IMG/VR virus record: IMGVR_UViG_3300031715_000019
Coordinates: 1 to 33,905 of that record
DNA: 33,905 bases
Source of the DNA: a virus
Strand: one strand, 5' to 3'
Both the position numbers and the translations under genes were made by a program. Each line of letters starts with the position of its first letter. Positions within the stretch are counted from its first letter, which is position 1. Of the stretch, positions 365 to 33,229 are shown in pieces. Under the pieces are notes generated by a model. It searched no databases. It worked only from the letters and a program-made list of their open reading frames with translations, and was not told where the DNA came from.

Positions 365-874
365 ATGCTGAAACACCTCAAGCGCCATTGGCTGATTGCT
401 GCCGCTGCGGCGAGCTGCCTGGCGGTCGGCGCGTTCGGCTATGCGTGGGCGCAGGGAATCCTCGCTCTGACGTCGCCGACAGGCACGGAACTGATCACGG
501 TGCTGCCGCTTCAGGCGAACGGACAGCCAGCGGCCACACAGGCAACGATCGCCCTCAATAACGCGCGCGCGACTACGTCCTCTCAATTGTCCACCGCGAC
601 GACCGGCACCGTAGTTGCAAACGCGCTCGCAAATCGGTTCATTTTTAATGGATCGGCGCCGGGAACGGTGACTGTTGATGGTCCGGCGACACCGCCAGAC
701 GGTTCGATGATAGAAATCGTCAACGGGAGCGCGGGCGCGGCGACGGCCATCACGTTCGCAACCACAGATTCTTCAACGATCGTTGGCACAGCGGCCTGCG
801 GGGCGCTGACGGTCGGAGGCAGCTGCGAATTTATGTACATCAGGTCGAATACGACTTGGTATCGATTGAGGTAA
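365..874 (+). CDS. Putative exported decoration/fibre-type protein with signal peptide
   Basis: This encodes 169 residues; the ATG follows an AGGAG ribosome-binding site. Residues 1-30 look like a Sec signal peptide: a basic start (KHLKRH), a long Ala/Leu core and an AWAQ cleavage region. The mature part is Thr/Ala/Gly/Ser rich with beta-strand character and ends in TTWYRLR. Short beta-rich phage decoration or fibre domains often have a conserved DG..IEIVNGS segment and a terminal TWYRL-type motif, and both are present here. The mature part has exactly two cysteines (AACGAL, GGSCEF), close enough to pair. The function is inferred: a virion surface or receptor-contact protein. It is the first of seven signal-peptide genes in the window. 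A cell-envelope protein made during infection is the alternative. Confidence 0.75.
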   Translation: MLKHLKRHWLIAAAAASCLAVGAFGYAWAQGILALTSPTGTELITVLPLQANGQPAATQATIALNNARATTSSQLSTATTGTVVANALANRFIFNGSAPGTVTVDGPATPPDGSMIEIVNGSAGAATAITFATTDSSTIVGTAACGALTVGGSCEFMYIRSNTTWYRLR

Positions 875-879
875 CCCTC

Positions 880-1263
880 ATGCACGCTATTCGTTTGATC
901 GGCCAGAACCACACCACACATCACGAGGGCGAGGTCTTGTCCATCGTTGATGAACGCACGGCGATGACCAATCGCAATACCGTGACGCTCGAGCATGCGC
1001 ACGTCCTCGTCGGGCGCGGTGAGGCGGAATGGATTGGTATGCCGCCGGACATTTTCGCAGAAATTGCCCGCAAACACGTTTACGAAGAGGGTACCAGAGA
1101 AGAGCCAAAAGCGGTGCTCAAGCCTGGCCACGTGAACTGGATTGGAGGTCCGCCGGAGAAACCCGACGAAGATAACGAAGACGACGACGAGGCAGACGGC
1201 GAGGACGACGATTTGCCGTCTGCCAGCGACGTGCGAGGCATTCTGCGGGAGAATAACGGATGA
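880..1263 (+). CDS. Hypothetical protein with acidic C-terminal tail
   Basis: This encodes 127 residues. I chose ATG 880 because a GAGG site sits just upstream, at the end of the previous gene; an in-frame GTG at 856 would overlap that gene. The N-terminal ~75 residues look like a small compact domain (MHAIRLIGQN, VTLEHAHVLVGRGEAEWIG). The end is a strongly acidic stretch (PDEDNEDDDEADGEDDD) followed by a short helix. Acidic tails of this kind occur in phage chaperones, scaffold-like proteins and DNA mimics, but nothing allows a choice. The stop overlaps the next start (ATGA at 1260), so the two are probably co-translated. Confidence 0.7.
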   Translation: MHAIRLIGQNHTTHHEGEVLSIVDERTAMTNRNTVTLEHAHVLVGRGEAEWIGMPPDIFAEIARKHVYEEGTREEPKAVLKPGHVNWIGGPPEKPDEDNEDDDEADGEDDDLPSASDVRGILRENNG

Positions 1264-1685
1264 AGCGCGTCGCCCTCGCCGCCTTCGCTTGGCTTGCGCT
1301 GTGGGCTGTGCCTGCGTCCGCGCAGGTCACGGGCGTCTCGCCCGCCCAGATGTTCGGCTGCACGAGGAGCGCGCAGACAAGCACCGTCGGCAGCAATGTC
1401 GTGCTCGCGGCGAGCACGGGGGCGACGGCGCAGATTTATGTGTGTGCCTTCACATTTGCGCCGGCCGGCACCACGCCGTCGGTGCATTTGTTTTGGGCGG
1501 CCACCGGCACCTCGTGCGCATCCTCTAATGGCAATGTCACGCCAGTGATGGCAGCCACTCAGCCGCTCGTTGACGGCCACTTCTATTATGCTGGGCTCCC
1601 GCCGGTGCCGAATGGTCAAGACCTATGCGCCGCTATTGTCGCCGGCACTGGCAGCACGTTGATCGTCTACTACACGCAATTCTGA
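1260..1685 (+). CDS. Small exported beta-rich protein with signal peptide
   Basis: This encodes 141 residues; its ATG overlaps the upstream stop. Residues 1-22 form a clear Sec signal peptide (MKRVALAAFAWLALW, then VPASAQ with an A-S-A cleavage site). The mature ~119 residues are beta-rich and contain four cysteines (FGCTRS, YVCAFT, TSCASS, DLCAAI), an even number consistent with two disulfides. No catalytic motif is visible. It lies between decoration-like genes, which suggests a virion surface accessory or an exported factor. The stop overlaps the next ATG (TGATG at 1683-1687). Confidence 0.72.
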   Translation: MKRVALAAFAWLALWAVPASAQVTGVSPAQMFGCTRSAQTSTVGSNVVLAASTGATAQIYVCAFTFAPAGTTPSVHLFWAATGTSCASSNGNVTPVMAATQPLVDGHFYYAGLPPVPNGQDLCAAIVAGTGSTLIVYYTQF

Positions 1686-1996: not shown

Positions 1997-2638
1997 ATGA
2001 GCAGGAGCCGCGCGTGGTTGATGATCAACTCGCCATCGCCACCGCCGCAAAGCGGAGGAGGAGGCGGCGGAAACTTAAGTGATATGAGCCTTCAGAAGAA
2101 CGTCGCCGGACAGAATACAACTTTCGTTGCCATCAACCCTTCGAACGGATTGCCAGCGACTGGACTGAGCTTTGTTGGTGCTGCATGGATATCGAAGGAT
2201 GGCGTGCAATTACCTGCTGGCGGAACATTTACTGAACTACCTCCTACAGGCAAGGGAATTTACAATTATAAATTCACCCAGAGCGAAACTAACGCGAACT
2301 GTGTATCACTGTTTGTTGCGCCGGTAGGCGCTTTCCCGCTAGATATGATTTTCCTAACCAGTGGACTTCATAGGAATAGCGCATCACCTCAGCAGCACAT
2401 CACGTTTGGAATGTCCTCGGTCTCTGGCGTTGCCGACCCAAGCGCTACTGTCACTGTCGAAGTGTGCCAAGACGGCGGTTCGTTATCAGCCGGTGGAGGC
2501 CCGACAGTCGCCAATCTCGGAAACGGTCAATTTGATTACCAGCCAACGGCGGGGGAGACCAACGGCGCGAACTGTAACTTTTCATTTTCCTCCCCTGGAG
2601 ATGTAACGCGAAACTTCTCCATTTATACGGTGCCATGA
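1997..2638 (+). CDS. Two-domain decoration/fibre protein with SLQKNVAGQ module
   Basis: This encodes about 213 residues from ATG 1997; GTG 1991 is an equally possible start. A Pro/Gly linker (SPSPPPQSGGGGGG) precedes two similar beta-sandwich modules. Module 1 (about residues 31-125) opens with SLQKNVAGQ and contains GIYNYKFTQSETNANCVSL. Module 2 (about 126-213) contains GQFDYQPTAGETNGANCNF. The shared G-x-[YF]-x-Y…[SG]ETN[AG]-x-[NQ]C pattern marks them as repeats of one fold. The same module opens the protein at 9702-10337. Such modules are widespread in phage head-fibre and decoration proteins, so a virion surface role is inferred. The stop overlaps the next start (ATGATGA). Confidence 0.75.
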   Translation: MSRSRAWLMINSPSPPPQSGGGGGGNLSDMSLQKNVAGQNTTFVAINPSNGLPATGLSFVGAAWISKDGVQLPAGGTFTELPPTGKGIYNYKFTQSETNANCVSLFVAPVGAFPLDMIFLTSGLHRNSASPQQHITFGMSSVSGVADPSATVTVEVCQDGGSLSAGGGPTVANLGNGQFDYQPTAGETNGANCNFSFSSPGDVTRNFSIYTVP

Positions 2639-4677
2639 TGAGCAGGAAAATAGGCGTTTTCCTTTTCGTCGTCGCTGCCATCCTCGCGACGATGTCCTCC
2701 CTCCGCTCTCAGCCAGTCGTTACTCCGGGGCCATTCGTGTCACCGTGCTCAGCCCTCCTTACCCCGGATCGAAACGCCTGCGCCAATTGGCGGATGGCGG
2801 GATTACAATCGATCGGAGGTATCCCAAACAGGGTCACGCAGTGCGGGTCAACGCTCAGTCCTCTCGGGTCCGGGATGGACGACACCAGCAGTATCAACAC
2901 GGCTATTGGCAACTGCACAGCAGGACAGGTTCTTCAATTATCTGCAGGCACATTCACGATTGCCGAGGGAAATTACATCCTGCTCAACAAGGGAGTATCG
3001 TTGCGCGGAATGGGTGCGGCGAACACGATTCTCCATAGACCAACCAGCGGGGTTTGTCCGCCAACGGCTGGATACGGCGCAACTATTAACTGCAGCAGTG
3101 GCGGCACTTCTCCATCAAACGTGATTTTGATAGCGCCGGTGGCTAGGTTCGTCGGGGACGCCATAACAGCGTGCGCCCTCACCTCAGACATCGCGGGAGG
3201 GTCGTACCAAGCGACCGTTACCAGCGGTTGCGCTACGAACTTTCATGTTGGGGATGTCGTGCTCCTAGACGAGTTGTCCGGTGCCGTCAATAACCTGATG
3301 CCGGACGCCCAGAACCCCAGCAACTCCATATGGGCGTCATCCGATTATCGAGTCGTCTATCACATCCATACGCCGACATGCTGCGGTGACGACGGCACGA
3401 ACGTCGAGAGCGATTACACCCTCAACACAGATCGTGTAACCAACGAACTAAAGCGAGTGGCGGCGGTCTCCGGCAACGTCGTCACGTTCGATTCTCCGTC
3501 AACAATCTCGTACCGTGTAAGCCATACGGCTGACCTTTGGAGCTTCGCGACGCCGTTCCTGCAGCAGGCTGGGCTTGAGGACGTCGCAGTCGAATATGGA
3601 GACGACGGCGCCATCCAGATGCAGTTCTGCGCGTACTGCTGGCTCTACAACGTCGAGGCGAGGTATTCGATAGGCCCGACGGTGCAGATGAACACGACCT
3701 TCCGAGCGCAGATCGATCGATCGTACATCCACGATGCGGCGTGGCCTGTCCCTGGAGGGGCCGGCTACCTCATCGATATGCGGTACGACACAGCCGAAAC
3801 CTACCTCGTGAACAGCATTTCTGTGCTCGGCAACAAGGCCATGACATCGCGCGGGTCGGGGGCTGGCTCGGTCATCGCCTACAACTACGTGGATAAGGCG
3901 TACATCAGCGGAGATTGTTGCTGGCAGGAAATCGGACTAAATGCCAGCCACCTTGTCGGTCCGCACCACGTCCTGATGGAAGGCAACTGGGCGTTCAATA
4001 TAGACAGCGATGCTACGCACGGCGGGTCAATCTACATGACTCACTTCCGTAATTGGGCGACAGCTATCAGGGGCTCATTCGTCGGCCTGAGCGGTCAGAC
4101 ATGGAACGATGCGGCGAACACCTGCGGGACGACCTCGTATAGCGGCAGCCCGCTGCGCGCTATCGGACCGCAAGCTTATAGCTATTGGTTCTCGTTTATC
4201 GGCAATGTGTTTGGAACAGCCGGCTGTACGACGCAGGCGAATGGCTTCCCGCTAACCAACTCGTACGGCGGATCCCAAAACAGCGACGGAATGTTCCTAA
4301 CCGGCTGGTGGAATCAGGGCGCCAGCATCAATGATCCTATGAGCGCGACTATCTATCCGAACGTCCCTGCCAACGTGAACGGTGTCGCGGGAGCCAATTG
4401 CACAACTTCCGGAACCAACTGCGCGACGATCATGAATGGCAATTATAATTATTGGAATGACGCGATCAGTTGGGCTTCGAATGACACCAACCACGCCTTG
4501 CCGAGCTCTCTTTACTTGAACGGCAAGCCAGCGTTCTTTAGCGGCGCAAGCTGCACATATGCATGGCCGTGGGTCGATCCTGTGGGCGGAACGCCTATCC
4601 ACAACAATAGCTGCGGCGGTTCTGGCAACCCGGCCAAGGCTAGATACGACGCCGGCACACCATTTGCGCAGCCATAG
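2635..4677 (+). CDS. Exported right-handed beta-helix tail-spike-like protein
   Basis: This encodes 680 residues; the ATG overlaps the upstream stop. Residues 1-26 form a signal peptide (MMSRKIGVFLFVVAAILA, then SSLRSQ). From about residue 82 (MDDTSSINTAIGNC) the pattern matches pectate-lyase-superfamily beta-helices, which often open with a DDT…I..AI segment followed by a LSAGTF turn and a LRGMG segment. Repeated N/G/S-rich rungs continue to about residue 600. The protein has 20 cysteines, including CC pairs (TCCGDD, DCCWQE), unusual for a cytoplasmically assembled spike. Likely role: host polysaccharide binding or depolymerisation. Catalytic residues cannot be assigned without a structure, and a secreted envelope enzyme is an alternative. 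Confidence 0.8.
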   Translation: MMSRKIGVFLFVVAAILATMSSLRSQPVVTPGPFVSPCSALLTPDRNACANWRMAGLQSIGGIPNRVTQCGSTLSPLGSGMDDTSSINTAIGNCTAGQVLQLSAGTFTIAEGNYILLNKGVSLRGMGAANTILHRPTSGVCPPTAGYGATINCSSGGTSPSNVILIAPVARFVGDAITACALTSDIAGGSYQATVTSGCATNFHVGDVVLLDELSGAVNNLMPDAQNPSNSIWASSDYRVVYHIHTPTCCGDDGTNVESDYTLNTDRVTNELKRVAAVSGNVVTFDSPSTISYRVSHTADLWSFATPFLQQAGLEDVAVEYGDDGAIQMQFCAYCWLYNVEARYSIGPTVQMNTTFRAQIDRSYIHDAAWPVPGGAGYLIDMRYDTAETYLVNSISVLGNKAMTSRGSGAGSVIAYNYVDKAYISGDCCWQEIGLNASHLVGPHHVLMEGNWAFNIDSDATHGGSIYMTHFRNWATAIRGSFVGLSGQTWNDAANTCGTTSYSGSPLRAIGPQAYSYWFSFIGNVFGTAGCTTQANGFPLTNSYGGSQNSDGMFLTGWWNQGASINDPMSATIYPNVPANVNGVAGANCTTSGTNCATIMNGNYNYWNDAISWASNDTNHALPSSLYLNGKPAFFSGASCTYAWPWVDPVGGTPIHNNSCGGSGNPAKARYDAGTPFAQP

Positions 4678-6929: not shown

Positions 6930-7630
6930 CTATTGCTCTCGTATCTGGTCAAATTGCGCACGTGTCTGACGCGAGTGCCGTTGCAACGCGCAATGTGGTT
7001 CTGACAAATAATCCGACACCAGGTAATTTCGTAGTCGTGATTGGTGCATTTGGGTATGCGTCATCACCAACCTTCACTGTAAAAGATTCGGCAGCAACGC
7101 CTAATACATATACGGCAACAACAAGCACGCCGTTTCTTAACTCCACTACTACTGGCGGCGTAGGTGTATGGTATTTGCCAAACGTACCTTCTGGCGCTAC
7201 TAAGACAATCACGATAGCAAATAACAATAATACCGCTGGGGATTGGACTGTCGCTGAGTTCTCTGGTGTAGCGACGTCAACACCCCTTGAAACGGCCATC
7301 ACTGGCACGCAAACATCTACCACCACTATCAACACGCCATCGGTGACTACGACTAACGCCGGTGATTTGGTAGTTGGTGGGACAGCAACTGCCGGGGACG
7401 TAAGCGCCGTAGTAACGACCACCACTCCGTGGATCTCTTTTTATACTTTTCCCTCCACGCAGGGTGAAGGCGCGGAATACGTTATTCAAACGAGCGCAGG
7501 TGCAGCAACGACTGGCTATACGCAGTCTACAGCTGGGGCGTCAGCTACCTTAATGGCAGCATTTAAAGCCGCTGCATCCGCGAATGCATTTCCTACCCCA
7601 TCAATCGGCGCGATAATGATCGGAGCCTGA
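6926..7630 (+). CDS. Stand-alone beta-sandwich module protein (paralogue of upstream C-terminal domain)
   Basis: This encodes 234 residues; the ATGA overlap couples it to the upstream spike gene. The whole protein repeats the C-terminal domain of that gene. Shared landmarks in order are P-x-x-GDF/GNFVVVIGAFG, a KDS…NTYTA segment, WYLPNVPSGATKTITIANN, WTVAEFSGV, TTNAGDLVVGG, EYVIQTSAGAATTGY and a final ATLMAAFKAAA. Such domains occur in phage tail proteins and in bacterial surface proteins and probably bind carbohydrate or an adjacent subunit. The protein contains no cysteine and no signal peptide. I infer that it is a spike-associated accessory or adaptor. The sequence is AT-rich like its neighbour, suggesting the two moved together. 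Confidence 0.75.
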   Translation: MTIALVSGQIAHVSDASAVATRNVVLTNNPTPGNFVVVIGAFGYASSPTFTVKDSAATPNTYTATTSTPFLNSTTTGGVGVWYLPNVPSGATKTITIANNNNTAGDWTVAEFSGVATSTPLETAITGTQTSTTTINTPSVTTTNAGDLVVGGTATAGDVSAVVTTTTPWISFYTFPSTQGEGAEYVIQTSAGAATTGYTQSTAGASATLMAAFKAAASANAFPTPSIGAIMIGA

Positions 7631-11371: not shown

Positions 11372-11691
11372 CAATGGCCGCTTCCTGGTACGATCGCGGA
11401 AAGAAAGACGGCAAGAAGGACGGCGGTAAGCCGGAAGGCATCCACGAGCGTCACGCCCGCGAGCGCGAGGAAACTCACTCGCGGCACCAAAAGGCGCGCG
11501 ACGGCATGCATAAGCAGCATCAAGAAGAACTCGCCATGATGGCCTCGCGCCACAACGATGAGCTCGCCAATGCGCCGGCTGAAGGCGGGGCGCCCGACGG
11601 TAGCGCAACGGCACCTGGCGCGATGAATACGGCAGGCGCTGGCGCCGCGGCCGGTACTCCGCCGGGCGTCTCCGGCGCGAATGCGGCATAG
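11368..11691 (+). CDS. Charged coiled-coil protein with Ala/Gly tail
   Basis: This encodes 107 residues; the ATGA overlap gives start 11368, with a second ATG two codons on. It begins MTMAASWYDRGKKDGKKDGG and continues as a long His/Glu/Arg/Lys helix (residues ~25-65, ERHAREREETHSRHQKAR … KQHQEELAMMASRHNDEL). The end is a disordered Ala/Gly/Pro tail. Such mixed-charge helices with floppy tails are typical of phage scaffold-like or head-filling proteins; that is inference. The start repeats the WYD motif of its two upstream neighbours. Confidence 0.65.
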   Translation: MTMAASWYDRGKKDGKKDGGKPEGIHERHAREREETHSRHQKARDGMHKQHQEELAMMASRHNDELANAPAEGGAPDGSATAPGAMNTAGAGAAAGTPPGVSGANAA

Positions 11692-11701
11692 GCGCCGCGC
11701 G

Positions 11702-12339: not shown

Positions 12340-12592
12340 CCAGAAATGTCGCTTGACCGCCCGCGCGCAAATAGGTGGTGAGATCCGCGAGCCTGGACAC
12401 GTGTTCGAGTTGCCAGACCGACAAATCGGCCCGCATCGCAGCAAAATGACCTCCCACGAGACGATCGACATCACCAACGATTCCCGCCGCGTGTTGCCCG
12501 ATTACGAGGACGAGCCCCTTTATGAAGTGTGGGACGGCGAGAATTGGGTGAAGCCGGGAAAGGCCGAGTCGGACCGTGACCGCACCCGTTGA
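12335..12592 (+). CDS. Hypothetical small protein upstream of tail tube gene
   Basis: This encodes 85 residues. ATG 12335 overlaps the upstream stop (ATGA), so I prefer it over the in-frame GTG at 12263. The N-terminal half reads like a small beta domain of the type seen in phage head-tail proteins (CRLTARAQIGGEIREPGHVFELPD), followed by a polar, acidic segment and DEPLYEVWDGENWVKPG. Phage proteins with a similar A…GG.iR.PG..FeL… pattern exist next to connector genes. The exact function is unknown. It overlaps the tail-tube start by 17 bases. Confidence 0.65.
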   Translation: MTQKCRLTARAQIGGEIREPGHVFELPDRQIGPHRSKMTSHETIDITNDSRRVLPDYEDEPLYEVWDGENWVKPGKAESDRDRTR

Positions 12593-13379
12593 CCTCTGCA
12601 ATCTGGCCCTAGACCAGATTTCAGCGCGGACCTCTATCACCAGCCTCAATCCCGCCTCGCCGCCGAATAACATCGCGGCGCAGGTGGCCTCGCGCACCTA
12701 TCAGCTTCAGGCCGACGCCGTATTCCGGGCCGCGCATTGGAATTCTGCCCGGCTGCAAGGACCGCTGACTCTTCTGCGGGCGGCGCGCGGCACTCCGGAG
12801 AATCCGGCCGGGACGACGCTGCCTGAGCCTCCGATTCCATGGCGGTACGAGTACGCATATCCTAGCGATGCCCTGCTGATTCGCTTCGTTATCCCGAAGG
12901 CGCCGAACGCCGTCGGCACCGTTCCGCTGATGACCAATGTGGGGTTCCTGCAGCGGCCCGTCGTGACGACGAGCCTGCCTTTCGTTCCAGCGATCGACTA
13001 CGACGCCAACGCAAATCAAATCAAGGTCATCCTGACCAATGCGCGCAATGCGGATGCGGTCTATACGGGGCGGATCGCCAACTGCGATCTTTGGGACGCG
13101 AGTCTCCAGAACGCCGTCATAGGCACGCTCGCCGCCTGGTTCACGCTGCCGGTCACCGGCGATAAGGCGATGTTGCAAGCACGCGTGCAGCTCGCCGTGG
13201 GCTTCATTAACGCCGCGCGGATCTCAGACGGCAACGAAGGGATCACGTCAGGCGATATCCCGGTTGACTGGATGCAGATCAGGAACGCGGGTGCCGGCTG
13301 GGGCGATGGGTTCTCCTTCGGACAACCCTATGTGGCCGGCTGGGATTCCATCGCGATGCCTAACGGCGTCAGCTATTGA
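12576..13379 (+). CDS. Tail tubular protein A (T7 gp11-like)
   Basis: This encodes 267 residues from GTG 12576. The start region, PVDLCNLALDQISA, is the hallmark of T7 gp11-type tail tubular protein A in alphaproteobacterial phages. Further features are VFRAAHWNSAR, then the long aromatic segment WRYEYAYPSDALLIRFV. Later come a nucleotide-independent packing core (AVYTGRIANCDLWDASLQNAVIGTLAAW) and a C-terminal loop (WGDGFSFGQPYVAGWD). Proteins of this family form the ring joining the portal to the nozzle and gate DNA passage; they act in the virion. The length is somewhat more than T7 gp11 (about 196 residues). It is followed by the nozzle gene, as expected. Confidence 0.88.
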   Translation: MTAPVDLCNLALDQISARTSITSLNPASPPNNIAAQVASRTYQLQADAVFRAAHWNSARLQGPLTLLRAARGTPENPAGTTLPEPPIPWRYEYAYPSDALLIRFVIPKAPNAVGTVPLMTNVGFLQRPVVTTSLPFVPAIDYDANANQIKVILTNARNADAVYTGRIANCDLWDASLQNAVIGTLAAWFTLPVTGDKAMLQARVQLAVGFINAARISDGNEGITSGDIPVDWMQIRNAGAGWGDGFSFGQPYVAGWDSIAMPNGVSY

Positions 13380-13600: not shown

Positions 13601-16600
13601 ATGAGCCTCACCCTAATCAAGTCAGCATTCTCCAGCGGGGAGATCGCGCCGAGCGTCTGGGGGCGCGTGGACGCCCAGCGGGTGCAGATGGGCTGTTCCG
13701 TCATGCGGAATTGCTTCGTCTCATATCGCGGGCCCGGATCGTCCCGCGCCGGAACGCTATTTGTCGGCCAGTCGATGACGCCGGCAAGCCCATCATCTTC
13801 GCCGCCCGTGCTCGTGCGGTTTCAATTCAACATCTTCCAGTCCTTCATCCTGGAATTCGGAGTCGGCCCCCGCGGTCCCTATATGCGCGTTATCGCCAAT
13901 GGGGGCTACGTGACCGAGGCGGCCGTCACAGTCACGGGGGCGACGCAGAGCATTCCTTGCCAGATCACCGCTCCGCTCCATGGCTTTTCGAACGGTGACT
14001 GGGTGTTTGGCGCTGCCTTCGTCGGCATGACGCAGTTGAACGGACGGCTGTTCGTTGTTGAAGGTGTCACGACGAACACCTTCACGCTTACGGACACGTT
14101 CGGAATACCAGTCAACTCGCTAAACTTCGGAGCGTACATCTCAGGCGGAACATTCGCGCGTGTCTTCACGCTTTTCAATATTCCGTATGCAATCGAAGAC
14201 CTGCCTTCATTGAAATTCGTCCAGTCGGCCGATGTGATGACGCTGTGCTGCGTCAATCAGGCGACCGGCGCGGAATATCCGCCGGCCGACCTCTCGCGGC
14301 TTGGGCCGACAAACTGGCAATACGCGGTTACGACCTTCGCCAGCGCGATTGCGGCGCCCGCTGGCTGCACCGCAACTGCCACGACCACGGTCGGCGCGCT
14401 CCCGGCGCAGAGTTATGGAGCCGGCTACAACCCCGCGGCGCAATACGCCTATTGCGTTACAGCTGTAGATGTGAACGGGGAAGAGTCCGTCGCATCTCCG
14501 GTCGCTTACACTCTCAACAACACGTCCGCGAATTCCTCCGTCGATATAAGCCTGACGGCCGGCTCGATAAACGTGACCTGGAGCCCAGTTCAGACGGCCG
14601 TCTCCGACAACATCTATAAGGCGCCCGGCGCGCTCTGGAATAGCGGAGCAAATAACCTGGCGCCGACGCAATCGGTTCCGATCGGCACGGCCTTCGGCTT
14701 TGTCGGCTCCGCGGTCGGCACTCAATGGGTCGATCAGAATGTAGTGCAAGATTTCACTACGACGCCGCCGCTTCATCTTAATCCGTTCTCCCGCGGCCAG
14801 ATCCTCACCGCCAATCCGAGCGCCGGCGGGACAGGCTATGCGCAGAGCACAACGACAGTCTCGATCGCAACTTCAACCGGATCTGGCGCCATCATCCTGC
14901 CCGTCGTCGTGAACGGCAACGTCACCGGCTACATTATTCAGAACGGCGGCCAGAACTATCGGCCAAGCGATACCTTGGTGGTCTCCGGCGCCGGCACGGG
15001 CGCGACCGGAACGCTGGTGGTCGGCCCGCAGACCGGCACCTACCCATCAGTGCCCGGCTATTTCCAGTCGCGGCGAGCCTATGCGGCCACGCTCAACCAG
15101 CCCGATACGCTCTTTTTTTCCCAGACCGGCGCCTATACGAACATGGATGCCGCCAATCCGCCGATCGATTCCGACGCGATTACGATGACGCCGTTCGGTC
15201 AGCAGGTTAACACGGTGCAATGGCTATTGCCGATGCCGGGCGGCCTGATCACTTGCACGGGGCTCGATGCTTGGCAGATTGCCGGGACTTCCGGCGCGGG
15301 ATCGCCGCTCACGCCGTCTTCGGAGAGCGCGCAGCCCCAAGAGTCAAATGGCTTCTCCCCGTTCATTCCGCCGATCCGCGCGAGTTACGACATCCTCTAC
15401 GTTCAGGAACTCGGGTACACGGTGCGCGACTTCCAATACAATTTTTTCAGCAACGTCTATTCGGGCACCGATCTTTCCGTTCTCTCGAATCACCTGTTTG
15501 AGGGGTTCACACTACCTTCCTGGGCCTGGTCTCGCGTACCATGGAAGGTGGTCTGGGCGGTGCGCGATGACGGCAAGGCAGTCTCGCTCACCTATGATAA
15601 GGAGCTAGAGCTCGCAGGCTGGGGCCGCCACGACACGAATGGCCTCTTCCAGCGCGTAGCCGTCGCGACAGAGCCGCCGGTTGACGTGCCGTACTTTGTG
15701 GTCAAGCGATTCATCCCGGGCGCCGGCCAATGGGCCTACTACATCGAGCGGATGGATAACCATTTTTGGAATGGCCCAGAAGATCCGTGGTGCATCGATG
15801 CCGGCCTGGAGCTAGAACAGCCTACCCCGAACGCGACGCTCTCAGCGGCAGCCGCAGAGGGCCTGGGCAACATCACGGGCGGCTATATCGCGACCGGAGG
15901 TGAAGGCTATACTAACCCCTCCGGAATAGCGGTCGATCCGACCGGCGTCGGCTCCGGGTTCGTGATCGAATTCACGCAAACCGGTGGCGTGATCAACGGC
16001 TTTACGATCCTCGCGCAAGGCGAGGGCTATTCGCCTTCGACCTATGTCGTTATCAGTGATCCGACTGGGGCCGGCGCCACTTTCATCCCCTTTCCATCGC
16101 AGAATGTCTTGTTCACAGCTGACGCAGCCGTGTTCGGAGGCAATCAGCCTGGCGACGTGATCCGAATCGGCGGCGGTCAGGCCACCGTTACGAGCATCGT
16201 TTCTCTCAGCCAAGCGCTCGCCGCTATCACGGTGCCGATCGTCCAGACCATGCCGAACGACCCGAATAATCTCCCAGTGCCCGCGTCATCCGGAGAATGG
16301 TCGATCACGACGCCCGTTTCGGTGATCACCAATCTCGATCACCTCGAAGGGATGCAGGTGACCGGGCTCGCGGACGGCAACGTGATTCCAGTCACAACGG
16401 TCGTCGGCGGTCAGGTTACGTTGGCTCAACCCGCTTCCTCGGTGAAGATCGGTCTTCCTTTCATCGCTCAGTTGCAAGCCCTCCATGTCGAGGAACCGTC
16501 GCAAGGCACGATTCAAGGCAAGCGCAAGAAGGTCAACGGTGTGAACGTCCGCATGGAAAAAAGCCGGGGCGTTCAGGTCGGCGCTAACCAGCCGGTTGCG

Positions 16601-16855
16601 GCGGCGCTCGACTTCCAGCAGGAAATCCCATGGACGAATCTGACGGATTTGCCGGAAGTGCCCAACGCTAATATTCCCGCCGCGGCCTTGCCGCTCTTCT
16701 CTGGCGATAAATTCCAGCCGATCAACGATGATTGGCAAAATTTCAATGGCTTCGAGGCAGCGCCAGCAATGATCGCCGTCCAGCAAAGTCTGCCGCTCCC
16801 GATGAATATAACTGCACTCGTCCCAACATTTAATATTGGGGATACGCCGGGATGA
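13601..16855 (+). CDS. Tail tubular protein B / nozzle (T7 gp12-like)
   Basis: This encodes 1084 residues. The opening (SAFSSGEIAPSVWGRVDAQRVQMGCSVMRNCF, a GPGSSRAGT segment and FQFNIFQSFILEFG) is characteristic of T7 gp12-type tail nozzle proteins. Residues ~118-185 (APLHGFSNGDWVFGA, TNTFTLTDT) form the small domain often annotated in phages as ubiquitin-activating E1 FCCH-like. Two Gly-rich beta modules are inserted at about 409-475 (GGTGYAQSTTTVSIA … GQNYRPSDTLVV) and 760-830 (GGEGYTNPSGIAV … GEGYSPSTYVVI). T7 gp12 is about 794 residues, so this protein is enlarged by modules. Typical nozzle landmarks (RRAYAATLNQPDTLFFSQ, WLLPMPGGLITCTGLDAW) lie between them. It acts in the virion as the tail tip channel. 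Confidence 0.88.
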   Translation: MSLTLIKSAFSSGEIAPSVWGRVDAQRVQMGCSVMRNCFVSYRGPGSSRAGTLFVGQSMTPASPSSSPPVLVRFQFNIFQSFILEFGVGPRGPYMRVIANGGYVTEAAVTVTGATQSIPCQITAPLHGFSNGDWVFGAAFVGMTQLNGRLFVVEGVTTNTFTLTDTFGIPVNSLNFGAYISGGTFARVFTLFNIPYAIEDLPSLKFVQSADVMTLCCVNQATGAEYPPADLSRLGPTNWQYAVTTFASAIAAPAGCTATATTTVGALPAQSYGAGYNPAAQYAYCVTAVDVNGEESVASPVAYTLNNTSANSSVDISLTAGSINVTWSPVQTAVSDNIYKAPGALWNSGANNLAPTQSVPIGTAFGFVGSAVGTQWVDQNVVQDFTTTPPLHLNPFSRGQILTANPSAGGTGYAQSTTTVSIATSTGSGAIILPVVVNGNVTGYIIQNGGQNYRPSDTLVVSGAGTGATGTLVVGPQTGTYPSVPGYFQSRRAYAATLNQPDTLFFSQTGAYTNMDAANPPIDSDAITMTPFGQQVNTVQWLLPMPGGLITCTGLDAWQIAGTSGAGSPLTPSSESAQPQESNGFSPFIPPIRASYDILYVQELGYTVRDFQYNFFSNVYSGTDLSVLSNHLFEGFTLPSWAWSRVPWKVVWAVRDDGKAVSLTYDKELELAGWGRHDTNGLFQRVAVATEPPVDVPYFVVKRFIPGAGQWAYYIERMDNHFWNGPEDPWCIDAGLELEQPTPNATLSAAAAEGLGNITGGYIATGGEGYTNPSGIAVDPTGVGSGFVIEFTQTGGVINGFTILAQGEGYSPSTYVVISDPTGAGATFIPFPSQNVLFTADAAVFGGNQPGDVIRIGGGQATVTSIVSLSQALAAITVPIVQTMPNDPNNLPVPASSGEWSITTPVSVITNLDHLEGMQVTGLADGNVIPVTTVVGGQVTLAQPASSVKIGLPFIAQLQALHVEEPSQGTIQGKRKKVNGVNVRMEKSRGVQVGANQPVAAALDFQQEIPWTNLTDLPEVPNANIPAAALPLFSGDKFQPINDDWQNFNGFEAAPAMIAVQQSLPLPMNITALVPTFNIGDTPG

Positions 16856-17954: not shown

Positions 17955-20579
17955 ATGTTGAAGAGAATCATTCTCGCTGTCGCTCTCATCGCCGCCGCTG
18001 CATCGACGGCATCGGCGCAGATTCAAATGCGCTCGGTGGCCAACGGCACCGACGTTTTCATTATGTACGATGCGTTTGGCGGAAATTACGGGATCACCGT
18101 CCAAACACTGATGAACTATATCGGAGGTGGCGGAGGATCGCCGGGCGGATCAAGCGGACAGGTACAATACAATAACGCTGGGGCATTCGGCGGCCTGACA
18201 AACACCCAGCTTACGGCGCTGATCAATCCATTCACGTCCGCGCTGAGTGGCGCCGTCCCTGCTTCCGGAGCGGACAACACATCTGGATTTTATCTTGGCG
18301 GCGATGGCGCGTTTCATGCGGTAACGAGCGGGGGGACCGTCACATCCGTAGGGGCAAGCGTGCCCACGGGACTCTCTGTTAGTGGATCCCCGGTTACGAC
18401 AAGCGGCACGCTCGCACTCAGCTGGTCTGGCACAATACCTAATGCGCAGATTCCTTCGCCGACCGTTAGCACGCGCGGCGGCGTGGAGGCGGTTACGTGC
18501 ACATCTGGTCAGTTCGTGAACGCCGTCCCCACCAGCGGCATCCCAGGTTGCGGGACGCCTCCCGGCGGCGGTAACGTCAGCACTTCGGGAACGATCACGA
18601 GCGGAGACTGCGCGCAGTTCAACAGTACAACCACCGTCATTTCCACTGGTGTGCCCTGCGCTGGTAACTCCCCGGGCGGCTCAAGTGGTCAAGTGCAATA
18701 CAACAATGCCGGCGCATTCGGCGGGTTGACGAATACGCAGCTCACGGCGCTGATCAATCCATTTACCTCGACGTTGAGCGGCGTGGTGCCGGCATCAGGA
18801 GGAAATGCTAACACATACCTGAACGGGGCCGGAGCGTTCACTACGCCTCCCGGCGGCGGCAACGTCAGCACTTCGGGCACCATCACAAGCGGCAACTGCG
18901 CTCAGTTCAACAGCACGACAACCGTCGTTTCAACCGGCGCACCCTGCGGTAGCGGTAGCGGCAGCGGCGATGTGCTCACTGTTTATAACGTGAAAAATCA
19001 CGGCTGCGTCGGCAACGGCGTTGCTGACGACAATGCCTGCATAATTTCGGCGATGAATGCCGCAATGGCCGCGGGTGGGGGCATCATCTTTTTCCCGCCC
19101 GGCAATTACAACGTCGGCGTGACGTCCGGCATGGGTCTCGTGATTGAGATATATAGCGGAACGACGTCCTACAATCATCTGATTTTCCAGGGCTCAGGTG
19201 TCGGTGTCACCAACATAATCCCCGGCAACGCCGGCATCACCATCGGCATGGAGATGACCGGTGGTTTCACCAATTGGGATACGATGAACACAACCTATCC
19301 GGCGACTAGTGCGGGGCTGGGTAGCAAGACGGTCACCACGACAACACCTGGCAATGCCAGCAATTTTGCTCCTGGTAATTTGATTCTCGTTTCTGGAGGC
19401 TTGCGCGGCGGCACGTGCACAATGTGCATGCTGACCGATTTCTGGTTCCCGAGCTGGTTCACTACCGTCGTTAGTGCCAACGCCTCGACTGGCGTTATCA
19501 CGCTAGCCGAATCCATACCAATGCGCGGGACTGACATCACGACCGTGCAGAAAATCATTTCTATGCCGAATCATCTAACATTTAGGGATATGACTATCGG
19601 TGTTCCATATACCAATTCCACGATCAGTGGGTGCGGACTCACGGACACCTGGGGTGTGTTCGGCGGAGATTACATCACGGTAGAGAATGTCGAGACGCTG
19701 CCGGGGTGCGGGCCTGGCGGTATGTTCTTCGATAATGTGCGCCATAGCGGCTGTCGGGCGTGTGTGATGCAGTCGGGTTCCGGGCCGATAGAATTCTTCG
19801 GTGCGGCGGACTCCTGGGTGGTCGATTCATGGTTGAATGGCGGACCAGCCAATGAAACGGCGGTGCTTCTCGATGGAGGGTCGTTTGATGTCACCGTCAT
19901 GAACAACCACTTCAAAGACCCGTCTGGAAATGTGATTTCAATTTCCGACTACACCGAACGCGCTATCGTTATGGGCAACGCGATTATTGGCCTGCCGGAT
20001 GGTGGGTTCTACGGCGTGGTTGATGGTAGTCCGCCAGCGGGTGCGCGCCCGCAAAAAAACAATGTCATCGTGGGCAATACCTTTACGGGCATCGATACAT
20101 CCAGCACGATCGCTATGGCGGTCAGTGATGACTCGACGGTCGCCAATACTGTGACCAATGTGCAACTGGGAATATTTGGTGGGTCGGACGGCGGCGGGGC
20201 GATCAGCGCCAACACATTTGACCCAACGGTTTCCAACCCGTTGCAGGGTGGGGGCCAGGTCGGTACGACACCCTATCGGTTCCAGGAACCTCCGGGTGTG
20301 AGAACGTTCCCGGCAGGAACGGCGACGCCGAATTTGCCGGATGCTGGCTACTATTTGGAGTTCCAGAGTGGAGCTCAGAACGTCACCAATTTTCTTGGCG
20401 GGCAGGTAGGAGACGAAGTCACCATTACTTTTGCGGATTCTCTCACGACGCTGGTCAACGGCAACATCATCCTAAAAGGTGGGACGAACTATACTCCGCT
20501 GGGTGGTGGCACAAACGCGATTACAATGAAGTTCGTCAAGGGACCAAGCCAATGGTACGAAGTATCGCGTACGCAATAG
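17955..20579 (+). CDS. Exported tail-spike with pectate-lyase-like beta-helix
   Basis: This encodes 874 residues; ATG 17955 follows the previous stop immediately. Residues 1-21 are a textbook signal peptide (MLKRIILAVALIAAAASTAS, then A-Q). Residues ~63-330 contain Gly/Ser/Asn-rich fibre modules repeated twice: PGGSSGQVQYNNAGAFGGL at 63 and 240, and GGGNVSTSGTITSG at about 203 and 299. From about 338 (LTVYNVKNHGCVGNGVADDN) a pectate-lyase-superfamily beta-helix starts, with the FPPGNYNV turn. The C-terminus (VTITFADSLTTLVNGNIIL) is a beta domain of the kind often found at spike ends. There are 14 cysteines, all after the signal peptide. The inferred role is polysaccharide recognition or degradation. 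The gene sits between two internal-protein genes. Confidence 0.82.
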   Translation: MLKRIILAVALIAAAASTASAQIQMRSVANGTDVFIMYDAFGGNYGITVQTLMNYIGGGGGSPGGSSGQVQYNNAGAFGGLTNTQLTALINPFTSALSGAVPASGADNTSGFYLGGDGAFHAVTSGGTVTSVGASVPTGLSVSGSPVTTSGTLALSWSGTIPNAQIPSPTVSTRGGVEAVTCTSGQFVNAVPTSGIPGCGTPPGGGNVSTSGTITSGDCAQFNSTTTVISTGVPCAGNSPGGSSGQVQYNNAGAFGGLTNTQLTALINPFTSTLSGVVPASGGNANTYLNGAGAFTTPPGGGNVSTSGTITSGNCAQFNSTTTVVSTGAPCGSGSGSGDVLTVYNVKNHGCVGNGVADDNACIISAMNAAMAAGGGIIFFPPGNYNVGVTSGMGLVIEIYSGTTSYNHLIFQGSGVGVTNIIPGNAGITIGMEMTGGFTNWDTMNTTYPATSAGLGSKTVTTTTPGNASNFAPGNLILVSGGLRGGTCTMCMLTDFWFPSWFTTVVSANASTGVITLAESIPMRGTDITTVQKIISMPNHLTFRDMTIGVPYTNSTISGCGLTDTWGVFGGDYITVENVETLPGCGPGGMFFDNVRHSGCRACVMQSGSGPIEFFGAADSWVVDSWLNGGPANETAVLLDGGSFDVTVMNNHFKDPSGNVISISDYTERAIVMGNAIIGLPDGGFYGVVDGSPPAGARPQKNNVIVGNTFTGIDTSSTIAMAVSDDSTVANTVTNVQLGIFGGSDGGGAISANTFDPTVSNPLQGGGQVGTTPYRFQEPPGVRTFPAGTATPNLPDAGYYLEFQSGAQNVTNFLGGQVGDEVTITFADSLTTLVNGNIILKGGTNYTPLGGGTNAITMKFVKGPSQWYEVSRTQ
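18141..18800 (+). repeat. Two-copy coding repeat in spike N-terminal region (531-bp offset)
   Basis: 18141-18269 and 18672-18800 encode nearly the same 43 residues (PGGSSGQVQYNNAGAFGG… to …VPASG, with only two changes). At DNA level they differ at many third positions. A second pair (about 18561-18660 and 18849-18948) encodes GGGNVSTSGTITSG and its continuation. The amino-acid conservation with silent divergence points to selection on the protein, not to a recent copy. Confidence 0.8.
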
Positions 20580-20824
20580 CGATTGCCTGCACCTTGGTTG
20601 CCGGCGCGTCTCGGGCGCAGGAGCCTACTCTTGAGGAAAGGGTGGGCGCTCTGGAAAGCCGATTGGCGCAGATCGCCAAAGACCTCGACCTGATCAAGGT
20701 GCAGCCACAGCAGCCGCGAGTTATGCCTGATGGCATACGCCCGTCCATGCTGCAAGACGCGCCCGTGTTCCACGAAAAGCTTCCCGGAGTGTCGCCGCGG
20801 CATCTGCCGAGGCCTTCCAACTAG
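20552..20824 (+). CDS. Small exported coiled-coil protein
   Basis: This encodes 90 residues, overlapping the spike gene by 28 bases. It starts with a signal peptide (MVRSIAYAIAIACTLVAG, then ASRAQ). A short acidic coiled coil follows (LEERVGALESRLAQIAKDLDLIKVQ, heptad pattern V/L…L…I…L…I). The end is Pro-rich (PQQPRVMPDG … RHLPRPSN). The only cysteine is in the signal peptide. The layout resembles a periplasmic trimerising partner, such as a spike chaperone, or a spanin-like accessory, although it lacks a lipobox or membrane anchor. Its overlap with the spike suggests that the two work together. The specific function is unknown. Confidence 0.68.
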   Translation: MVRSIAYAIAIACTLVAGASRAQEPTLEERVGALESRLAQIAKDLDLIKVQPQQPRVMPDGIRPSMLQDAPVFHEKLPGVSPRHLPRPSN

Positions 20825-29529: not shown

Positions 29530-31407
29530 ATGTTCCGCCGCATTCTTGCGGGCGCATTCCTTTTGCTTGCGCTCATGGCCCCGGCCGCCGCGACCGTCAA
29601 CAGCTCCGCCAACAAGACCATTGTTGCCGGCAACGGCTCGCAGACGGTCTTTGCCTTCAGCTTCATCGGCGTTGCGGCGCAATACATCAGCGTGATCTAC
29701 ACGGACGCGTCGGGCAACCAGACGACGCTATCCCAGGGCAGCGGAACGACCCAATATCAGATCAGCCTCAATGCGCCGGTTCAGGGCGCCATCTGGGGCC
29801 TCGGCGGGACCGTTACTTACAATCCGAGCGGGACGCCGATCGCCGCCGGCACTACATTGACGATCGTTCGCACGCTACCCCTGACGCAGGCGATCACGCT
29901 GCAGAATCAGTCATCGGTGCAGACGCTCGGCAAAGGCTCGGAACAGGCGGTCGATACCGCGGTGATGCAGGACCAACAGACTGCCGAGCAGATCGGCCGT
30001 GCGTTGCAAATGAACATCGCGAACACGGCTCCGCCCAATCCGTTGCCGCCCGCTGCGCAAGTCGCCGGACTTGGCCTTTGCTTCGATAGTACCGGCAATA
30101 ACGTAATCGGCTGCTTGAACGTGCCGAGCGGTGTCATATCGAGCGCGATGGTTCCCGTCGTGGGCGCAGCAACGATTGGCGTTGCTCAAAATCTTCTCGG
30201 CGTCCCCCAAAGCGTCAAGACTTTCGGAGCGCAGGGCAATAGCAATGGAACCCATGGCAACGGGGCGGACGACACGGCGGCCGTTTCTGCAGCGATGGAC
30301 GCCTCCTCCGACGTATATTTTCCATGCGGCGTCTATCGCATAACCACAACTATCACGAAGACGAGCACGACCAACCACTATTATCTTCATGGCGACGGGC
30401 CATGTTCACAAATTTATCTCGACAATAGCGTGACCCAGCCGCTCTTTCAGTTTACCCCCGCTTCAATATGCAGCGCTTGCGTTAGAATTGAATACCTTAA
30501 TTTCATTCCGCCGACCACGCTTGGCAATTCAACGGCGACGGTTTCGCTCACCAACGAGACATTGTCGGAGTACAACCACAATTCTATTTTAGGATATCAG
30601 GTCGGAATTGCCTACATATCCGGAGCGTTCGCCCCCCATGTCGAGGGCAACTTCTCGATCAGCCTGGCGACCGGATTTATTTTCGTCGGCGGCATCGATG
30701 CCACTTTGAACGGCGCTAGGATATGGCGCAATATCGTCCTCGCTTCTGGGCTGGTGTCTTCTACTGCGGCGCTGACGCTGAACTGTGGGACAGGCTCTAA
30801 TAACATCTCGCTGATCGGCAACGACCTCGAAGGCAACTACGGAAATATACTGCTTTCTAATGGATGCACATCTGTAGATATCCTAGACAATTATATCGAC
30901 GCCACGGTAGCGGGAGATGCATTCAACTTTAGCGGAACGGGAAACTCCGGTGTCGTCGTCCGTGGAAACTGGCTCGGGGCGCAACCGTCGCAAAACCTCG
31001 TTGCCAACGTAAGCAAACTGGTGTTCGGCACAAATACCGTTTATAACCATTCCAATAATTGGGCCTCCACAGCGCAGGCCGTCCAGATCGAACACACAAA
31101 CGTAATCGCCGGAACCGGATCGATAGGCGCTCTGCAAAGTATGCCGGCGCCGTCTGCGTGCGGAGCCTCTCCCGTCATAAATGGTAATCGATGGCATGGC
31201 CTGGTTGAGGTTGGCGGCGGCACTGTAACGAGTTGCACGGTGACCTTCGATGTTCCCTTCGATGCCAACCCAGCGTGTGCGGCCTCTGCGGTGGGACCCG
31301 GCATAACAATCGCCAATTTTTCATCGCTTGTTTCGACGGGGTTCACGTTGGTGCTTTCCACCTCGGCCTCTGGTCTCTTCAGCTATCTATGTGATCAGCA
31401 CGATTGA
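29530..31407 (+). CDS. T7-type tail fibre/spike with signal peptide and beta-helix
   Basis: This encodes 625 residues; a GGAG site lies upstream of ATG 29530. Residues 1-22 look like a signal peptide (MFRRILAGAFLLLALMAPAA, then A-T). Residues ~24-160 match the T7 tail-fibre N-terminal attachment domain: NKTIVAGNGSQTVFAFSF, YISVIYTDASG, TTLTIVRTLPLTQ, and EQAVDTAVMQDQQTAEQIGRAL. From ~227 (KTFGAQGN … GADDTAAVSAAMDAS, VYFPCGVYRI) a pectate-lyase-like beta-helix runs to ~530. A C-terminal module (538-625, SCTVTF and SYLCDQHD) is shared with the last spike. There are 12 cysteines. Role: receptor-binding spike attached to the tail. The signal peptide is unexpected because T7 fibres assemble in the cytoplasm. 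Confidence 0.84.
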   Translation: MFRRILAGAFLLLALMAPAAATVNSSANKTIVAGNGSQTVFAFSFIGVAAQYISVIYTDASGNQTTLSQGSGTTQYQISLNAPVQGAIWGLGGTVTYNPSGTPIAAGTTLTIVRTLPLTQAITLQNQSSVQTLGKGSEQAVDTAVMQDQQTAEQIGRALQMNIANTAPPNPLPPAAQVAGLGLCFDSTGNNVIGCLNVPSGVISSAMVPVVGAATIGVAQNLLGVPQSVKTFGAQGNSNGTHGNGADDTAAVSAAMDASSDVYFPCGVYRITTTITKTSTTNHYYLHGDGPCSQIYLDNSVTQPLFQFTPASICSACVRIEYLNFIPPTTLGNSTATVSLTNETLSEYNHNSILGYQVGIAYISGAFAPHVEGNFSISLATGFIFVGGIDATLNGARIWRNIVLASGLVSSTAALTLNCGTGSNNISLIGNDLEGNYGNILLSNGCTSVDILDNYIDATVAGDAFNFSGTGNSGVVVRGNWLGAQPSQNLVANVSKLVFGTNTVYNHSNNWASTAQAVQIEHTNVIAGTGSIGALQSMPAPSACGASPVINGNRWHGLVEVGGGTVTSCTVTFDVPFDANPACAASAVGPGITIANFSSLVSTGFTLVLSTSASGLFSYLCDQHD

Positions 31408-31439
31408 TCGTCGCCGCCAATCCAAGGAAGCCTTGACAA

Positions 31440-31790
31440 ATGTCCAACGCGAACGCGCCTCTTCCCACAGCGCAGCTGCGCCTCAATGTGCCGATCACCT
31501 CGCCGAACGGCTCGCTCGTGATCGTGAACAGCTCCTCTCAGGTGACGGCGATCGGTTCCAATCAAAACCGACGCGGCGTGATCTTCGTCAATCCGGTGAC
31601 CAATACCGCGAAGATTACGATCGTCCCGTCAAATCAGAATGCAGTCTCCGGATCTGGCGTCGTCATCCTGCCCGGCGCGCAGCAGCCGTTCATCGCCGAT
31701 CCGAGCAGGAACATTGCCTATAACTGCGGCTGGAACGCCATTTGCGACACGGGCTCGAACGTCCCGCTAGAGGTCCTGGAGCTGTTGTGA
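31440..31790 (+). CDS. Small beta-rich structural protein
   Basis: This encodes 116 residues from ATG 31440. The body has a typical phage beta-sandwich pattern: GSLVIVNSSSQVTAIGSNQNRRGVIFVNP, then KITIVPSNQNAV, SGVVILPGAQQPFI and YNCGWNAICDTGSNVPLEVLEL. The R-G-[VI]-[IF]-F-x-N-P plus I-x-P-G pattern occurs in small decoration or fibre-associated proteins. No signal peptide; two cysteines close together (NCGWNAIC). It lies between two spikes with a TGATG overlap to the second, so it is probably an adaptor or cap for them. No specific family is assigned. Confidence 0.68.
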   Translation: MSNANAPLPTAQLRLNVPITSPNGSLVIVNSSSQVTAIGSNQNRRGVIFVNPVTNTAKITIVPSNQNAVSGSGVVILPGAQQPFIADPSRNIAYNCGWNAICDTGSNVPLEVLELL

Positions 31791-33229
31791 TGCGTCGGAT
31801 TTTCCTCTCTCTATGGATGTTGCTTGCGCTCGCGGTTGGAGTCGCCGCGCAAGGATGCGGCGATCAGAATCCGAATTGCATCGTCCCCACGGCGCCGCCC
31901 GGGACGAGCAACAATCAGGCGGCTTCCACAGCATTCGTACAACAGAATATCCTCAATGTATCCGCCGTCGCTCTTGGCGCCGACCCTACGGAAGTCAGCG
32001 ACAGCACGTCGGCAATCAATAACTGCCTGAGCTTCAAGACCACGGGAAATCTAATTTGCTGGCTAGCGCCTGGCAACTACGCTGTCTCTGGACAGCTGAA
32101 CATCGGAAACGGCAACGGAACAACCTCGTTCTCAACGATCAACGGCGTCAAGCTGGCCTGCACCGTCCCGACGCGCCCAGGCCTCAACGGGATATCCGGA
32201 GAGCCCTCGGCGGGGCCTTGCAATATCAATTCGTCCTTTGCCGGTGTTACGATTTCCGTCAATGGCCCCATCAACGGATGGTCCATCGAGGGCATTTCGC
32301 TGACACTCAGCTCCAGCAACAGCGCGGCCGGATGTCTGGTTGTGAGTTCTGGATCATTCGGCCGTGTTGAAAGCTTTCTGTGTAATGATGTTCCCGGCAT
32401 CGGTATCCTGGAGTTCGTGAATTCTGGCGGTGGTCAGCCGAGCTATTTCAATGCCTGGCGCAATATACAAATTCGTGCGCTCCCGGCATCGACGACATTC
32501 CAAGGCATTCACATCGGAAGCAATCAAGCGAGCACCGACAACTTTGGCGACAGTTGGGAAAATACAAACATAATACCTTCTACCTCGTCTGCGTCACAGG
32601 CGATCTATCTTGGCAGCGCGGATTCGATGGTGTTCAATCGAACAACCATAAACCCTGGCACCGGCAGCGCGCTAACCTTCAATTATGCGGAGGCTGGCGG
32701 AAGCAATAACAATTGGCCTTCGGGCATCACCTTTATCAATTTCGACGCCGGCAGCGGCAACTCCATCGGCAACAGCGGCACGCCAAGCGCAAGCGCGAAG
32801 CCGAATGTGCTGATGCTCAATACAGTCAACAATGGAACTATTCCAAATCTGTCCAATCTTACAGTCCTCGGACCGAACGATATAATCATGTCGTCCGGTG
32901 CGAACAGGGTCAACGGGCATATCTTCGCGGATAATGCCGGCCATTTTGGCGTCAGGCAGTCCGGACCGACGATAACATCCGGATGCAATGGAACCGGATC
33001 GGTCGTCAATGGGAACGATAATGACGGCCAAGTGGCAGGCCAGACGGCGAATGCTACCACGTGTGTCGTTACTTTCGCTAATGCCTACACCTCTCCACAG
33101 GCCTGCATTGCGGCCGGAGCCAGCCCGCCCTTGACGAGTTTCACTTACACGCAAAGCACCATGACCGTGACATTTCCCAGTACCGCGGCCTATTTCTGGT
33201 CCTATCATTGCGCGGCTTTGGCGCCGTGA
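31790..33229 (+). CDS. Exported beta-helix spike with fibre-type C-terminal module
   Basis: This encodes 479 residues; ATG 31790 overlaps the upstream TGA. Residues 1-21 form a signal peptide (MRRIFLSLWMLLALAVGVAA, then Q). A lipoprotein site is unlikely: the AQGC segment is a poor lipobox. After SNNQAASTAFVQQNI (a common fibre motif) a beta-helix begins near residue 60 (ADPTEVSDSTSAINNCL, WLAPGNYAVSG) and continues to ~385. Residues ~390-479 (GPTITSGCNGTGSVVNG, TTCVVTFANAYTSPQACIAAG, YFWSYHCAALAP) form a module also found at the end of the tail fibre gene. There are 12 cysteines. Probably a second spike with alternative receptor specificity. It ends the plus-strand module. Confidence 0.82.
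   Translation: MRRIFLSLWMLLALAVGVAAQGCGDQNPNCIVPTAPPGTSNNQAASTAFVQQNILNVSAVALGADPTEVSDSTSAINNCLSFKTTGNLICWLAPGNYAVSGQLNIGNGNGTTSFSTINGVKLACTVPTRPGLNGISGEPSAGPCNINSSFAGVTISVNGPINGWSIEGISLTLSSSNSAAGCLVVSSGSFGRVESFLCNDVPGIGILEFVNSGGGQPSYFNAWRNIQIRALPASTTFQGIHIGSNQASTDNFGDSWENTNIIPSTSSASQAIYLGSADSMVFNRTTINPGTGSALTFNYAEAGGSNNNWPSGITFINFDAGSGNSIGNSGTPSASAKPNVLMLNTVNNGTIPNLSNLTVLGPNDIIMSSGANRVNGHIFADNAGHFGVRQSGPTITSGCNGTGSVVNGNDNDGQVAGQTANATTCVVTFANAYTSPQACIAAGASPPLTSFTYTQSTMTVTFPSTAAYFWSYHCAALAP

Follow-up and report, generated by a model that had tools for sequence, protein, structure and literature searches.

The window analysed here, the whole 33,905 bases of the IMG/VR virus record IMGVR_UViG_3300031715_000019, is probably of soil origin and has the gene content of a podovirus (tail tubular protein A, nozzle, gp13-like and gp14-like internal proteins, and a tail-lysozyme internal protein, PF18013, at 20845), and seven of its genes open with a predicted Sec signal peptide. 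By comparison with related loci, such leaders appear to be confined to appendages, namely the tail fibre (29530; genes are named by their first position), a second spike (31790) and a capsid-spike-like protein (365). Export of these appendages through Sec is very probable. An earlier note, made from the letters of the window, had inferred Sec export and periplasmic disulfides for proteins of the tail-spike type, and this core of its reading is strongly supported by the comparative data.

Leaders were scored with a home-made Sec scorer that considers the charge of the n-region, an uncharged hydrophobic core and the −3/−1 rule. It recovers nine of ten known E. coli signal peptides, PhoA being missed. 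The earlier note had listed seven leaders and suggested that they be scored together with their homologues. All seven were found again (7.4 to 9.6), with scores of 8.0 for 365, 7.7 for 1260, 7.5 for 2635, 9.6 for 17955, 7.4 for 20552, 8.5 for 29530 and 7.7 for 31790, and the same scorer detected leaders in many, but not all, of the homologues. The other 23 genes of the window scored at most 2.5, or gave no parse, at their annotated starts; when alternative starts were allowed, two of them rose, to 4.1–4.3. Internal pseudo-starts of the same proteins were used as a null, of which 0.09–0.19% passed at a cut-off of 6. All seven leaders display a basic n-region, a hydrophobic core and small residues at −3 and −1, the features of signal peptidase I substrates. 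The signal peptidase II feature, a lipobox ([LVI][ASTVI][GAS]C) at the cleavage site, is present in none of the seven; one (LAGC) occurs in a gene of a relative (L104, 5913). Two of the leader-bearing starts are nested in longer mechanical open reading frames (ORFs), 17955 in 17769–20579 and 31790 in 31742–33229. As far as sequence features can tell, the case for genuine Sec signal peptides in the window is strong.

For comparison, 49 related loci were retrieved with the tail tubular B protein (13601) and further loci with the fibre adaptor. The resulting set consists of 93 related podovirus loci (some overlap), with 952 called genes in 414 protein clusters. The fibre provides the sharpest evidence. 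A profile of its N-terminal adaptor domain (A1, 12 domains, about 140 residues) matches Dpo31 of Cobetia phage Carin1 in the PDB (E=2e-19), with profile positions 1–140 aligned to residues 2–130 of the chain and position 1 falling on chain residue 2. The adaptor found 54 phage records by tblastn. In HTVC035P, Carin1, phiV10 and ctCJ8213, the annotated gene consists of a Met followed directly by the adaptor, the Thr of the domain being residue 2. Of 31 loci with the adaptor domain, 16 have a Sec leader and 15 lack one. In the leader-bearing set, made up of the window and 15 relatives, the placement of the adaptor at residue 2 does not hold for the primary product, but it does for the predicted mature product. 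A signal peptidase I site, [AVT]-x-[ASG], stands directly before the adaptor start in all 16 leader-bearing homologues, the conserved start residue being Thr (Val in L118). The strict form [AV]xA is found at this offset in 13 of the 16; at each of the other offsets between −12 and +12, no more than three have it.

The leader-less homologues have ATG, GTG, TTG or, once, ATA directly before the same adaptor residue. Cleavage of the leader in one form and removal of Met in the other would therefore yield the same N-terminus. No leader hidden in another frame by a sequencing error was found upstream of the leader-less fibres. Colinear homologues without the hydrophobic N-terminus had been named by the earlier note as evidence that would speak against its reading. 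They do exist (15 of 31), yet they start at the cleavage residue and thus support a cleavable add-on. The leader state was switched at least four times among the fibre homologues, and six times on the best tree. In four relatives (L122, L123, L129 and L130), the hydrophobic core and the cleavage site of the fibre leader are separated by an unusually long stretch, in part acidic (GEIVDLAWLGYVRA^T), which is conserved across this subgroup.

The cysteines of the fibres appear to behave as disulfide pairs. Fibre 29530 contains a co-varying pair at mature positions 162/173. In 13 aligned fibres, columns 163/174 hold two Cys in six sequences, none in seven, and a single one in no case. A second pair, with three alternative placements, is likewise complete or absent and never single; in the leader-less L116 fibre, Ala and Gly replace the two Cys that its leader-bearing relatives show there. 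Counts are even in 13 of 16 leader-bearing fibres versus 3 of 11 leader-less ones (Fisher p=0.008), and Cys density is 1.29% versus 0.50% (p=5e-4). In the 365 family, members have either 0 or 2 Cys, both gained together.

The mature proteins of the window have, in gene order, 2, 4, 20, 14, 0, 12 and 12 Cys, exactly as had been counted in the earlier note. Its caution that six even counts may arise by luck once in 64 is fair for the window taken alone, and the even-count signal holds beyond the window. With a cut-off of 6.5 in the related loci, 126 of the 952 genes were scored as leader-bearing, and 73 of the 414 clusters include at least one such gene. Parity was tested with one representative per cluster in which leader-bearing members form the majority, considering non-zero counts. 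Even mature counts were found in 48 of 62 representatives (p=9e-6), and in 43 of 57 (p=8e-5) without the clusters found in the window only. A fitted negative binomial expects 48% even counts for the leader-bearing clusters, and the observed excess has a p of 2e-6 to 1e-5. For the leader-less clusters, the proportion (66/182) matches their own fitted expectation (0.38). Cys makes up 1.7% of mature leader-bearing proteins and 0.5% of leader-less proteins, a 3.4-fold difference. Even and co-varying cysteines, as are typical of disulfides, are thus found, the exceptions being three odd counts among the 16 leader-bearing fibres.

Leaders are distributed unequally between appendages and the core of the virion. 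The core set comprised tail tubular A and B, gp13, gp14, internal proteins, portal, scaffold, capsid and neighbouring head genes. Of its 189 homologues, one scored as leader-bearing, and this was spurious, a gp14-like gene having been called from an upstream start; none of the 32 homologues of the nozzle scored. Leaders were found in 13 of 13 called second spikes, 13 of 30 fibres, 4 of 4 members of the 1260 family and 11 of 11 called members of the 365 family. Eight podoviruses served as controls. Their scoring genes with an annotated function belong to lysis (spanins and a lysozyme, for example), and the other scorers were a few small hypothetical genes and ORFs of the overlapping or internal kind; genes annotated as tail or capsid never scored at their own starts. 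The leader-bearing second spikes share the motif [AS]^QGCGxxNxNC at the mature start (12/12), and no leader-less homologue of this protein was found.

The "virion-type" label given to the seven genes in the earlier note holds to different degrees. For 29530 it is supported by homology. For 365 it is suggested by the fold: among PDB structures, the AlphaFold2 (AF2) model of the mature protein (predicted local distance difference test, pLDDT, 86.5) is most similar to the Pseudomonas phage Pa223 capsid spike (9ny6_C; E=5e-4, TMq 0.49 over 96 columns, a partial match). In relative L106, the gene of this family follows that of the major capsid protein (MCP), a place occupied in Carin1 by the head spike base gp40. 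The model thus suggests a resemblance to a capsid spike. For 17955 the label is suggested by PHROG 2234 (tail spike, E=1e-11 over residues 342–404); the viral_contigs scans gave weak and mostly short matches to this protein, which also contains an internal duplication of the segment GGSSGQVQYNNAGAFGGLTNTQLTALINPFTS. For 1260, 2635, 20552 and 31790 the label is given by position only, or is tentative. The four Cys of the 1260 family are invariant in alignment A3, and the AF2 model of 1260 (pLDDT 78) is all-β, with no significant match in a fold search of the PDB. No relative of 2635 was found in the viral_contigs scans or by tblastn against annotated phages, and tblastn of 17955, 365, 1260 and 31790 against annotated phages gave no match. 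The mature part of 20552 may form a coiled coil.

It is proposed that the fibre 29530, the second spike 31790 and probably the spike 17955 and the capsid-spike-like 365 would be exported to the periplasm via Sec, that signal peptidase I would cut them exactly where the virion-binding domain starts, and that they would fold in the periplasm with disulfide bonds. The head, portal, nozzle and internal proteins would remain in the cytoplasm, where the particle would be built as in other podoviruses, and the appendages would dock onto it at or after lysis, once the inner membrane opens. Capsids and nozzles have no leaders and should therefore be cytoplasmic, so that the appendages would meet them only when the inner membrane opens. 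As inner parts could not be added late, late docking predicts leaders on outer parts only, as is seen. P22 tailspikes reportedly attach to heads in vitro, which would show late docking to be feasible. Of the three explanations offered by the earlier note, its periplasmic spike-assembly route fits best, here refined to periplasmic folding followed by late docking. The full model of export, cleavage, periplasmic disulfide folding and late docking is favoured with moderate confidence, and the docking of exported appendages onto virions is given the same preference. The broader picture of a two-compartment virion, in which a cytoplasmic capsid and nozzle are joined at lysis by disulfide-bonded periplasmic head and tail spikes, the end by which the fibre docks being made by signal peptidase I and the leaders having been gained or lost several times at one and the same residue, is evenly poised between true and false.

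Several points weigh against this proposal. The Sec scores come from a home-made scorer; cleavage and oxidation in the cell are deduced from sequence, the presence of the fibres in virions is predicted, and post-lysis docking rests on compartment logic. The tree holds only 4–6 independent gains or losses of the leader, and the parity and density contrasts of the fibres are not significant when the tree is taken into account. The three leader-bearing fibres with odd counts have 5, 9 and 9 Cys. The fibre of L112, which is closely related to the window, is rich in Cys (11) although it has no leader. The β-helix protein at 4689–6929 (PF13229) has 10 Cys and no leader, an exception to the association of the two. 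A scan of genome_contigs with the adaptor gave one weak partial match (a Lachnospiraceae contig), no such prophage and no host.

The main rival is that the leader-bearing proteins are not part of the virion but only soluble exported enzymes, secreted to attack polysaccharide in the surroundings of the lysing cell, with the adaptor as a relic. Sec export alone accounts for leader, cleavage and disulfides, and several of the proteins have pectate-lyase or β-helix features. This reading is nevertheless considered unlikely. The capsid-spike-like protein has a leader too, the cleavage site coincides exactly with the start of the adaptor, and purifying selection acts on the adaptor as it does in relatives without a leader, so that the domain appears to be still in use. 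The ratio of nonsynonymous to synonymous differences (pN/pS) in this domain is 0.09–0.29 between leader-bearing pairs and 0.27–0.32 between leader-bearing and leader-less fibres (0.09–0.32 overall). Each of the 13 matching records (which may be fragments) yielded a single copy of the adaptor, and none a second adaptor-bearing fibre. Exported depolymerases, another explanation of the earlier note, are possible, but alone do not explain a purifying-selected adaptor in the sole copy per record searched.

Still less probable is a dual localisation, in which an inefficient leader would allow some fibre to be built into virions from the cytoplasm while the rest is exported. Partial export occurs for some proteins, and a new assembly step would be unnecessary. 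However, an uncut leader would stand ahead of the residue with which the adaptor begins in the virion homologues, the Cys counts and pairing seem tuned to oxidation, and a search near the junction found no internal start, preceded by a Shine-Dalgarno sequence, from which a cytoplasmic form could arise. That the genes are morons, host-derived exported hydrolases unrelated to particle assembly, is very improbable: some C-terminal domains resemble pectate lyases and 2635 is without phage relative in the collections searched, but the leaders are fused to phage-specific adaptor or appendage domains at conserved places among capsid, tail and fibre genes, and the genome_contigs scan, with its single weak match, gave no prophage of this kind. 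An uncleaved hydrophobic segment serving as a membrane anchor or hydrophobic virion part, the reading that includes the virion anchor of the earlier note, is hardly credible, for although a hydrophobic N-terminus could by itself insert in a membrane, the −3/−1 motif stands at a single offset, at the adaptor boundary, in 16/16 fibres and before QGCG in 12/12 second spikes, and leader-less homologues begin at the same residue.

Late docking of periplasmic appendages would set these phages apart from known systems. For spikes of tailed phages, folding and attachment are assumed to take place in the reducing environment of the cytoplasm. By its domain, fibre 29530 is assigned to the family of the Carin1 exopolysaccharide (EPS) depolymerase tailspike Dpo31 (PDB 28lx, 28mg, 8ck1) and the epsilon15/phiV10-type adaptors, with which it also shares the place after the internal virion protein genes and a depolymerase-type C-terminal part. 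The predicted primary product differs in its start: the proteins of Carin1, phiV10, HTVC035P and ctCJ8213 are leader-less and begin at the adaptor, whereas a Sec leader and numerous paired mature Cys are found here. The 365 family has a partly similar predicted fold to the Pa223 capsid spike (9ny6) and a place between MCP and tail tubular A comparable to that of Carin1 gp40, but no structural gene of Carin1 scored as leader-bearing (Pa223 was not among the controls). Cleavable signal peptides also occur on virion proteins of filamentous phages, whose coat proteins pIII and pVIII are exported via Sec, with some disulfides formed outside the cytoplasm. Those phages are extruded through the membrane, unlike the T7-like tailed podoviruses considered here, whose core proteins are leader-less. 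Phage lysis proteins (spanins, signal-arrest-release endolysins) likewise have Sec leaders, but serve lysis and are not structural appendages. The earlier note knew of no described system of this kind, and full-text searches of the open-licence literature likewise found no description of a Sec-exported tail spike or fibre of a tailed phage. The target proteins of phage diversity-generating retroelements are stated to lack signal peptides (PMC6199706).

If the proposal is true, virion assembly would make use of host Sec and oxidative folding, some phages would depend additionally on the export and disulfide machinery of the host, fibres could gain stability from disulfides, and receptor-binding parts could be shared or exchanged within a lysate. 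Annotation pipelines may mistake exported virion proteins for secreted enzymes of the host. The predicted mature N-terminus of the fibre, TVNSS, is a sharp junction prediction that is cheap to check.

Table 1. Coordinates in the window of the predicted leader-bearing genes, the parts of the fibre and the leader-less genes used for contrast.
Feature	Position	Strand	Remarks
Predicted capsid (head) spike-like protein	365..874	+	Leader residues 1-29 (365-451), AWA^QG; mature 2 Cys
Small exported protein (predicted)	1260..1685	+	Leader residues 1-21, ASA^QV; 4 mature Cys
Cys-rich (20 Cys) spike-like protein with predicted Sec leader	2635..4677	+	Cleavage after residue 18 or 26; sub-threshold Pfam tailspike hits
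Tail tubular protein A-like	12576..13379	+	PHROG 394; no leader (contrast); 58 homologues, none leader-bearing
Tail nozzle / tail tubular protein B-like	13601..16855	+	PHROG 376, E=1e-133; no leader (contrast)
Tail-spike-type protein	17955..20579	+	Leader residues 1-21 (17955-18017), ASA^QI; 14 Cys
Small exported protein (predicted)	20552..20824	+	Leader about residues 1-22, SRA^QE; 0 mature Cys, charged
Predicted Sec leader of tail fibre	29530..29592	+	Cleavage PAAA^TVNSS; 16/16 leader-bearing homologues fit the −3/−1 rule here
Tail-fibre N-terminal adaptor domain (Dpo31 / epsilon15-phiV10 type)	29593..30012	+	Profile A1 versus PDB Dpo31
Fibre linker and C-terminal pectate-lyase-like domain	30013..31407	+	PF12708, E=3e-4, below cut-off; 12 Cys
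Small leader-less protein between fibre and second spike	31440..31790	+	PHROG 692, weak; conserved gene order
Second spike	31790..33229	+	Leader residues 1-20, VAA^QGCGDQNPNC; 12 Cys, Cys pair at new N-terminus

The small protein 31440 has no leader in its six close homologues. L130 encodes two adjacent similar proteins related to it (6344–6712 and 6709–7086), the second of which has gained a Sec leader, apparently a further graft of a leader onto a phage protein.

Some other genes of the window deserve mention. The internal virion-type protein at 23538–26072 has a weak match to an ADP-ribosyltransferase (ART-PolyVal) and an acetyltransferase-like stretch, both below the Pfam cut-offs, and is possibly polyvalent and injected. 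A candidate head decoration protein is encoded at 11681–12133, where the match to Gp10-like (PF21628) is slightly above the Pfam cut-off. The 436-residue protein at 8395–9705 consists of repeated FxTTQExPFHPG-like units and has no family match. A tandem repeat of an 84-base unit is present in 2.6 copies at 10414–10632, within the ORF 10337–10735 (VLSPGGYSRPPYGSFAGKP units). The genes 1991–2638 and 9702–10337 have the start region LQKNVAGQ in common and look like paralogues.

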